DNA from: Lysobacter silvisoli
GTDB taxonomy: Bacteria; Pseudomonadota; Gammaproteobacteria; Xanthomonadales; Xanthomonadaceae
DNA: 64,000 bases
Assembly: GCF_003382365.1 (NCBI RefSeq)
Contig: NZ_QTSU01000001.1
Span: forward strand, 992,001 to 1,056,000
Direction of reading: 5' to 3'
Below, piece after piece: positions 12,467 through 37,102 of the stretch. The notes under the pieces were generated by a model. It searched no databases. It saw only the letters and a list, made by a program, of their open reading frames with translations, and was not told the origin of the DNA. A program made the position numbers and the translations under genes. How positions within the stretch are numbered: position 1 is the stretch's first letter; every line of letters begins with the position of its first letter.

Positions 12467-13834
12467 TCAGTCGTCCGCGGGCAGGGGCGACAGCCGCGCG
12501 CGCACTTCGGCGTCGACCGCGTTCCAGTCCAGGCTGTCCAGGCGGTCGTGGCCGCGGGTGAGATCGACCAGCAGCCGGCGCTGGGCCTGGCCGCGCTCGA
12601 AGGCCGTGGCGTAGGGCATGCGGTGGAAGGTGACCATGGCGTAGCGCGGCATGAAACGGTCGGGGTGGCGCTCGGCCAGCTCGCGCTCCAGGGCGCGCTG
12701 CAGCAGATAGTCGTCGTCGTCGACGCGGTCGCGCATTTCCAGGTAGTTCTCCAGCGCCATGGCCTGGATCGCCCGCGCATTGGGCAGGCGCTGGGCCTGG
12801 AAGGCGGCGAAGGCGGCGGCGCGGTCGTCGCCGCGCTCCAGGTGCTGGGCCAGGGCCACGCAATCCTCGAAGGCGCAGTTCATGCCCTGACCATGAAACG
12901 GCACCATCGCATGGGCGGCGTCGCCCAGCAGCACGGCGCGCTCGTCCAGGTACCAGCGGTCCAGGTACAGGGTGGCGAGCAGGCCGGCAGGATTGCGCTC
13001 GAAGTCCTGCTCCAGGTTCGGGATCAGCGGCAGCGCGTCGGCGAAATCGCGCTCGAACAAGGCCCGCGCCTGCGCGCCGTCGCGCACGCTGGCGAAGCTG
13101 GGCTCGCCTTCGTTGGGTAGGAACAAGGTGACGGTGAAGGTGCGCTCGTCGTTGGGCAGGGCGATGCACATGTAGCGGCCGCGCGGCCAGATATGCAGGG
13201 CATTGGGCTCGATGCTGAAACCGCCGTCGGGCGTGGGCGGAATCTCGAGTTCCTTGTAGGAATGGCCCAGGAACTCGGTGCGCTCGCCCAGGTCGGCGTG
13301 CCGGCTCATGGCTGCGCGCAGCGCCGAGCCGGCGCCGTCGGCGCCGACCAGGCTGTCGAAGGCGGCCTCATGCAGGCTGCCGTCGCGGTCGTCGGCGAAA
13401 CGGGCGATGCGTGCATCGAAATCCACTTCGGCCAGGCCGCGGTGGAAGTGCAGGTTCGCACCGGCTTCCTGCGCGATCTGCAGCAGGATCAGGTTGAGCT
13501 CGCCGCGGTGCACCGACCAGATCACTTCGCTGTCGTCGCGGCCGTAGCGCTGCAGGTCGCAGCGGCCGTCGAGGAAGTGGACCATGCGCCCGCGCATCAT
13601 CACCGCCTGCGCCATCACCGCCTCGTCCGCGCCGGCCAGGCGCAGCGCGTGGCGGCCGCGCTCGGCCAAGGCCAGGTTGATCGAGCGCCCGCCCTGGTAG
13701 CCCTTCAGCCGCGGATCGCCGCGCTTCTCGTACACGTCCACGACCCAGCCGCGGCGGGCGAGCAGGGTGGCCAGCAAGGCGCCGGCCAGGCCGGCGCCGA
13801 TGAGGGTGATGCGCTTGGAGGTGGATGCGTTCAA
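12467..13834 (-). CDS. kmo: Kynurenine 3-monooxygenase
   Basis: 455 aa, the normal length for bacterial KMO. This FAD enzyme hydroxylates L-kynurenine to 3-hydroxykynurenine with NADPH and O2. The dinucleotide motif GAGLAG is at residues 13-18, an Arg-rich LKGYQGGRSINLALAERGR follows near 55, and the second FAD motif GDAAHAMVPFHGQGMNCAFED near 310. The start is a TTG at 13834 behind AGGAATAGG; the only upstream ATG (13897) lies inside the repeat element and would add a non-conserved arginine-rich extension. The GIY-YIG repeat unit ends only 57 bp upstream, separating kmo from kynU. Confidence 0.95.
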   Translation of the reverse strand: MNASTSKRITLIGAGLAGALLATLLARRGWVVDVYEKRGDPRLKGYQGGRSINLALAERGRHALRLAGADEAVMAQAVMMRGRMVHFLDGRCDLQRYGRDDSEVIWSVHRGELNLILLQIAQEAGANLHFHRGLAEVDFDARIARFADDRDGSLHEAAFDSLVGADGAGSALRAAMSRHADLGERTEFLGHSYKELEIPPTPDGGFSIEPNALHIWPRGRYMCIALPNDERTFTVTLFLPNEGEPSFASVRDGAQARALFERDFADALPLIPNLEQDFERNPAGLLATLYLDRWYLDERAVLLGDAAHAMVPFHGQGMNCAFEDCVALAQHLERGDDRAAAFAAFQAQRLPNARAIQAMALENYLEMRDRVDDDDYLLQRALERELAERHPDRFMPRYAMVTFHRMPYATAFERGQAQRRLLVDLTRGHDRLDSLDWNAVDAEVRARLSPLPADD

Positions 13835-13890
13835 GGTCCTATTCCTGCGGTGCGCTGACTGCGATCCGGTTCCGCGCCGTGCCTCCGATA

Positions 13891-14264
13891 CCGTCATTCC
13901 CGCGAAGGCGGGAATCCAGTAGCTTCAGCCGGTACCTACGAGGTCCTGCCACAAGTCCCGCCAATCCGGGTTGGCTTCCTCGATCAGCCGGATCTTCCAT
14001 TCCCGGTTCCATTTTTGAGTCGCTTCTCACGGGTAATGGCGCTGTCCATGGTTTCGTGCAACTCATACCAAACCAGCCGAGTTACCTCATGACGTTCAGT
14101 GAATCCTTCGACGGCGTGTTCCCGATGTTGCCATATGCGTTGGATCAGGTCTGAGGTAACGCCGATGTACAAGGTGCCTCGCTTCGCGCTGGCCAATAGG
14201 TAGACAGCGGGAGATTTCGGCATGTCGGCCTCGTTCTGGATTCCCGCCTTCGCGGGAATGACGG
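13891..14264. mobile_element. 374-bp candidate mobile unit: GIY-YIG gene between perfect 29-bp inverted repeats
   Basis: The left end (13891-13919) and right end (14236-14264) are exact reverse complements over 29 bp. Each end contains its own hairpin, ATTCCCGC-GAAG-GCGGGAAT. Between them lies almost only the GIY-YIG reading frame. No target-site duplication is evident in the flanks. Small GIY-YIG genes next to this CGTCATTCC palindrome are frequent in proteobacterial genomes, and here the geometry is that of a self-contained unit. It sits inside the kynU-kmo junction. Confidence 0.55.
13925..14223 (-). pseudogene. GIY-YIG single-domain nuclease, frameshifted near the C-terminus
   Basis: From ATG 14223 the frame reads a standard GIY-YIG domain: VYLLASAKRGTLYIGVTSDL, then QHREHAVEGFT and ITREKRLK. 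At the A5 run (14012-14016, minus strand) it passes into nonsense and stops at 13984 after 79 residues. Reading one base back restores the expected tail KWNREWKIRLIEEANPDW, ending at a TGA at 13925-13927, for a product of about 98 aa as in intact relatives. Either one A was lost (mutation or sequencing error) or a -1 slip on the A run is used. Function would be DNA cleavage; the link to the flanking repeats is inference. Confidence 0.8.
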
Positions 14265-14274
14265 CGTTTAAGGC

Positions 14275-15561
<1,287 letters not shown>

Positions 15562-36993: not shown

Positions 36994-37102
36994 CCGTCAT
37001 TCCGGCGAAAGCCGGAACCCATTTTGACCTTCGCTCCGATTAGAGTGGCTGCGCCCCTCAAGAGCAAAGCAAAATGGGTTCCGGCTTTCGCCGGAATGAC
37101 GG
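36994..37102. repeat. Perfect 33-bp inverted repeat pair of the CGTCATTCC palindrome family
   Basis: Left arm 36994-37026 and right arm 37070-37102 are exact reverse complements, with a 43-bp spacer. Each arm holds its own hairpin TTCCGGC-GAAA-GCCGGAA, a GNRA loop. Compared with the arms at 13891/14236 (CCCGC-GAAG-GCGGG) both sides of the stem have changed together. There is no GIY-YIG gene inside this copy. It sits between the convergent DUF6958 and SDR genes, so it could also terminate transcription from both sides. Confidence 0.85.

Follow-up and report, generated by a model that had tools for sequence, protein, structure and literature searches.

The Neisseria protein Ssn, a single-domain GIY-YIG enzyme, is reportedly a site-specific single-stranded nuclease that goes together with a repeat named NTS (Nature Communications, 2025). 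A comparable partnership exists between REP sequences and RAYTs: in REPtrons the gene of a repeat-specific enzyme, a HUH Y1 transposase, is framed by GTAG-tagged repeats, which are also found as many inverted dimers (REPINs). For another REP superfamily, tagged by CGTC, a 2013 report states that its members "apparently lack a dedicated transposase" (Di Nocera et al. 2013, PMC3733652). As described there, CGTC-1 REPs, which include the Neisseria dRS3 repeats, carry a CGTC tag, an 8-bp stem opening with A-T pairs, a 4-base loop and a CCA tail, and form head-to-head dimers; neither GIY nor Lysobacter is mentioned in the main text of that report.

Here we analyse a compact unit in the window, i.e. 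the whole 64-kb stretch of Lysobacter DNA under study, in which a GIY-YIG gene is framed by two inverted palindromes. Its repeats, termed type A, fit the CGTC-1 description in tag, A-T-led stem, loop, tail and head-to-head dimers, while the stem of a second type, B, is without the outermost A-T pair; unlike the CGTC-1 REPs of the 2013 report, for which no dedicated transposase was found, they are accompanied by a GIY-YIG gene. With REPtrons and REPINs the system shares a repeat-specific enzyme gene framed by repeats and the many inverted dimers, but the enzyme is a GIY-YIG protein rather than a HUH Y1 transposase and the tag is CGTC rather than GTAG, so that the unit falls outside the RAYT/REPtron class. 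A relative from N. gonorrhoeae, which we take to be Ssn, is a single-domain GIY-YIG protein with 71% identity over 92 aa, a close homology, and CGTC/dRS3-type hairpins adjoin its gene. Different from Ssn/NTS are the two-sided framing, the coexistence of two types with matching repeat sets and the broken state of the window copy. The first-pass annotation had regarded a relation between GIY-YIG proteins and palindromes as not established, which is only partly right, given the reported Ssn/NTS pair. We consider it probable that the unit is one broken copy of a widespread single-domain GIY-YIG family, in which each nuclease is paired with its own CGTC-tagged hairpin and may act on it by cleavage and repair.

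Structure of the unit and its genomic site

The two arms of the unit (13891..13919, plus strand, and 14236..14264, minus strand) are 29 nt each, 100% complementary and separated by 316 nt, and either arm is a palindrome on its own. About 9e-11 such arm pairs (≤400 bp apart) are expected by chance in 64 kb of equal base composition, which bears out the initial description of perfect 29-bp inverted ends with a hairpin in each. The left arm, a type A, CGTC-1-like hairpin directly beyond the nuclease gene at its 3' side, consists of the tag CGTC, the stem ATTCCCGC/GCGGGAAT, the loop GAAG and the tail CCA(G); the right arm, its exact inverse, precedes the start codon of the nuclease by approximately 12 bp. 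Folding of the whole unit as single-stranded DNA gave z = -7.0, and positions 13800-14400 yielded no Rfam match above the gathering score. The spacer holds one GIY-YIG ORF on the minus strand. Both neighbouring genes are encoded on the minus strand as well: the kynureninase gene kynU (14275..15561; TIGR01814, E 2.4e-140) and a FAD-dependent monooxygenase-like ORF (12467..13897; kmo in the naming of the first-pass annotation) that probably starts nearer 13835. A homing endonuclease was considered and rejected because the unit is intergenic, situated between two genes and inside neither.

Among 20 genomes of the genus, 13 carry a framed unit in the kynU-kmo gap, with site and orientation shared by all of them, while in the other seven the gap measures 54-98 bp and is without the unit. 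Twelve of these 13 units have arms with 0-2 differing bases; in G002 the number is seven. An empty site had been sought in this gap; at the species level the short gap without the unit was indeed found, although the intergenic sequences have diverged too far to define the site to the base. One of the gaps without the unit (L037, G018) contains a different palindrome, TTCGTCCTTCCCGCG-TTCGCGGGGACGACGAA, which may be a relic or belong to another repeat type.

Spacer DNA (L022-L034) and flanking genes give strongly conflicting trees: groupings supported by the flanks were rejected on the spacer tree, both for G009+G014 (p-AU 2.6e-49) and for G003+G004+G010 (p-AU 4.9e-79). The cassette has therefore probably been exchanged or re-inserted at one fixed site in one orientation.

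The nuclease and its relatives

The ORF between the arms (13984..14223, minus strand) matches the Pfam family PF01541 with 52.1 bits (curated cut-off 22.6; E 8.5e-14), as do 14/14 aligned relatives. The nuclease gene noted earlier between the arms is thus present, but it is frame-broken and encodes 79 aa: owing to a frame break within an A-rich stretch, the conserved C-terminal part remains as an out-of-frame remnant (13925..13983, minus strand), recognised by reading the DNA directly against the alignment of relatives. Ten of the other 12 copies at the kynU-kmo site of the genus encode 98-109 aa, and early stops reduce those of G010 and G017 to 87 and 89 aa; together with the window copy, three of 13 are shortened. 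By domain and by fold the window gene is a member of the GIY-YIG nuclease superfamily. For an intact relative, AlphaFold gave a confident model (pLDDT 90.7) that had UPF0213, Slx1 and UvrC GIY-YIG domains as its top fold matches in the PDB, with a best Foldseek E of 2.6e-3 and none below 0.001. One of seven hits of a PDB sequence search was UPF0213; the other six, WD-repeat/WRAP-T chains with no stretch passing alone, were set aside as chance. NCBIfam offered no model fitting the nuclease. Tyr8, Tyr19, Arg29, Glu66 and Asn85, presumably the catalytic residues, are invariant in all 24 rows of an alignment that excludes rows with stops, and Asn85 has been lost from the window copy through the frame break. 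The family is under purifying selection, with dN/dS ratios of 0.08-0.37 in 10 chosen nuclease pairs, synonymous sites being near-saturated in some.

A scan of named genomes confirmed 532 relatives, the best 80 of which were analysed with their surroundings. A CGTC-type hairpin was present within 250 bp at 69 of these best 80 of 532 loci, and GTCATTCC or its complement occurred 5.24 times per kb within 250 bp of the gene vs 0.14 times per kb at distances beyond 600 bp. Taxa named in the record titles include Gammaproteobacteria, Betaproteobacteria, Alphaproteobacteria, Chloroflexi, Planctomycetes, Myxococcota and Ignavibacteria, with numerous metagenome bins among the records. The nearest hairpins pointed head-out on both sides of the gene at 30 of the best 80 loci, corresponding to 30 of the 56 having hairpins on two sides, and head-out framing was likewise found at 18 of 24 usable best loci of the family. 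Perfect inverted repeats of at least 14 bp surrounded the gene at 38/79 loci, vs 0/1088 control windows from the same loci. A stop interrupted the match in 10 of the best 80.

Repeat types and their nucleases

A nuclease-free palindrome pair at 36994..37102 had initially been taken for the same palindrome as that of the unit. It is instead of the sister type B, with another stem and tail (CCGGC/GCCGG and CCCATTTTG, vs CCCGC/GCGGG and TCCAG in the unit), and this inverted dimer folds into one long hairpin (z -12.7). Type B is the repeat type of a second, intact nuclease located outside the window (C1:957408-957719), beside which three tandem type B pairs are found. A 15-base pattern spanning types A and B matches 117 times in this genome; of 20 hand-picked stretches of it, 18 contain inverted pairs, with arm loops matching by eye in 11 of the 18. 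Nuclease-free dimers show the head-out layout of the unit with a shorter spacer, the commonest repeat spacings in 800 kb each of G003 and G004 being 72 bp and 53 bp. In some type A hairpins (L241, L242), which form a variant subfamily, CTCCGCTTTACTTCGGC... extends the arm between the stem and the tail.

Repeat type and nuclease type match across the genus. All four genomes with a type B nuclease are rich in type B repeats (118, 129, 245 and 190), vs 0-4 copies in 14 of the 16 others. The remaining two, with 62 (G013) and 42 (G017) copies, hold orphan families, no type B nuclease being found in them even at E 0.01; non-B repeats number 26 in G015 and 38 in G019, genomes without a type A unit. 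The type B gene is unframed: in three of the four genomes, the approximately 520 bp upstream of it contain one to three whole dimers, a half-site was all that was seen in the fourth, approximately 300 bp upstream, and no repeat was seen in the 1.5 kb examined downstream.

Where a genome has several paralogs, its framed nucleases mostly come with a palindrome type of their own. The prediction that repeats follow the unit with the same tail gave a mixed result, holding in part for ATCGC and failing for ATCTC. Of 66 ATCGC-tailed repeats, 33 belong to G080 and five to G158, both with a matching unit; 12 are spread over three genomes without a nuclease match (G047, 7; G069, 4; G105, 1) and 16 over seven others. 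ATCTC-tailed repeats occur once outside their own unit in G055 and nine times in three other genomes. Mapped on the nuclease tree, the palindrome stem type, assigned in 126 of 148 rows, changes 34 times vs 50 times on average over 200 shuffles, a comparison affected by few alignment columns, near-copies and weak branches.

Repeat numbers and nuclease presence

In the genus, the 15 genomes with a nuclease contain 14-401 repeats and the five without contain 4-11. On the flank-gene tree nuclease presence changes at least four times, and repeat numbers follow in 4/4 independent pairs (p 0.125; the cut-off of 14 repeats was set after the counts were seen). One of the four pairs is weak, with 14 repeats in G002 vs 11 in G001, and G001, counted as being without nuclease, has a distant single GIY-YIG match (C1:457409-457678, L303; E 2.1e-11 with the A1 profile) that the first search had missed. 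Of 159 genomes of the family, 54 have a nuclease (E 1e-12) and a median of 17 repeats; the median of the 105 others is 0. Ten of 11 within-genus contrasts in the family agree with this association and one disagrees (p 0.012). At the species level, palindromes and GIY-YIG genes are therefore not independent of each other, albeit with exceptions: 20 of the 105 family genomes without a nuclease match have 3-24 repeats, and seven of the 54 with a nuclease have fewer than three.

The partnership of nuclease and palindrome proposed in the first-pass annotation, similar to that of REPs and RAYTs, is well supported at the level of sequence comparison by this co-occurrence (15/20 and 54/159 genomes), by the proximity of hairpins at 69 of the best 80 of 532 loci and by the matching of types. 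An intact nuclease would recognise its cognate hairpin in single-stranded DNA, as may arise on the lagging strand, in repair or in transformation uptake, and cut there. The hairpins flanking the gene would be its own targets, which would make the gene an exchangeable cassette, and they might also feed back on nuclease expression. Over time, cleavage followed by repair or template switching at hairpins could keep, multiply and homogenise the repeats. The comparative evidence joins the reported Ssn/NTS pair with the CGTC REPs; cleavage, a preference for single strands and multiplication or spreading of the repeats by the nuclease are what we infer beyond it.

A different account, modelled on what is reported for Ssn/NTS, is that the nuclease has incoming or transient single-stranded DNA as its substrate and thereby modulates transformation, that it does not spread the repeats, and that gene and repeats travel together by horizontal transfer and selection. 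It agrees with the identity of 71% to the N. gonorrhoeae relative, with the similar hairpins adjoining that gene, and with the disagreement of unit and flank trees at kynU-kmo. Alone, however, it leaves unexplained why copy number is higher with a nuclease in separate lineages, and we regard it as a serious possibility whose chances are somewhat below even. A further extension of the pairing of each nuclease with its own hairpin, offered tentatively, is that single-domain GIY-YIG nucleases might be the mobilising enzymes that the CGTC REP superfamily has so far been missing: they would constitute a second REP-enzyme system, chemically unrelated and parallel to RAYT/GTAG, with each nuclease copying, homogenising and maintaining its own hairpin family. 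CGTC REPs, for which the 2013 report names no dedicated enzyme (PMC3733652), now have a candidate enzyme with matched pairs in several genera, which opens the question of their enzyme to direct testing. Should the repeats be multiplied by the nuclease, a major superfamily of bacterial repeats would be driven by a non-HUH enzyme class; otherwise, the pairing still lists nucleases whose hairpin targets can be predicted.

Identity of the arms

Forty stretches around family nuclease matches were inspected, 23 of which had hairpins on two sides, and the closest hairpin on each side was compared. The arms of these 23 units differ by 1.0 base on average, and 13 are perfect. Mismatches between the arms of one unit average 0.47 (17 units) vs 4.85 when paralogous units within a genome are compared (13 pairs, 7 genomes), although some paralogous units in G083 and G153 are only 1-2 bases apart (2/13 pairs).

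Perfect arms might also result from quasi-palindrome correction by template switching, or be terminator-like palindromes, the nuclease being irrelevant to arm identity in either case. This finds support in dimers without a nuclease. In one (L194/L214; G003 C1 ~72419, G004 C1 ~74399), an insertion of approximately 26 bp occupies mirror positions in both arms in one species only, which suggests template switching inside the dimer, i.e. copying from arm to arm; another shows matched changes in both arms, and arms can therefore stay alike without a gene between them. As a full explanation, correction of this kind is rather unlikely, as it does not account for type matching, for proximity across phyla or for copy number, all of which agree with the pairing of each nuclease with its own hairpin.

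Mobility of the unit

The first-pass annotation suggested, by analogy with REPs and RAYTs, an autonomous copy with the nuclease and non-autonomous copies with the palindromes only. In an autonomous transposon, the nuclease would excise and insert the whole unit, and nuclease-free dimers would be its non-autonomous derivatives. The inverted ends framing the unit, the shared head-out layout of the shorter dimers, the short gap without the unit in 7/20 genomes and the conflict of unit and flank trees at the same site are in keeping with such a transposon. However, 27 within-genome pairs from 12 genomes, a subset of the paralogs, share 59-70% of bases and include no near-identical copies, so that the near-identical copies at several genomic sites that mark an insertion sequence were not found, and the 13 units of the genus occupy one site in one orientation. 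In addition, most mapped repeat clusters are common to G003 and G004 (21/24 and 19/25, respectively) over the 800 kb compared, where array lengths differ and no clean target duplication was seen. Nine clusters (3 + 6) had been scored as being without counterpart; of eight inspected, at least three had one and others lie in unalignable DNA. These observations favour a resident, exchangeable gene, whose repeats turn over locally, rather than a hopping element; autonomous transposition is not supported and is considered improbable.

That RAYT (HUH, Y1) transposases spread the repeats, with the nuclease as a bystander, is very improbable and was rejected: Y1_Tnp genes occur in 19/20 genomes, but the most repeat-rich genome (G009, 401 repeats) has no Y1_Tnp match, repeat number does not correlate with Y1 count (rho 0.19, p 0.42) but does correlate with nuclease count (rho 0.66, p 0.002; neither value kinship-corrected), a CGTC half-site lies within 250 bp at 1 of 30 Y1 loci examined (of 38 matches), and no RAYT flanked by CGTC repeats is reported in the portion of the 2013 study considered here (PMC3733652).

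Comparison of G003 and G004 also revealed another long palindromic repeat, TAGGAGCGGCGCGAGCCGCGACC, which is present as an inverted pair in both species near C1 ~621700 and ~639100, respectively.
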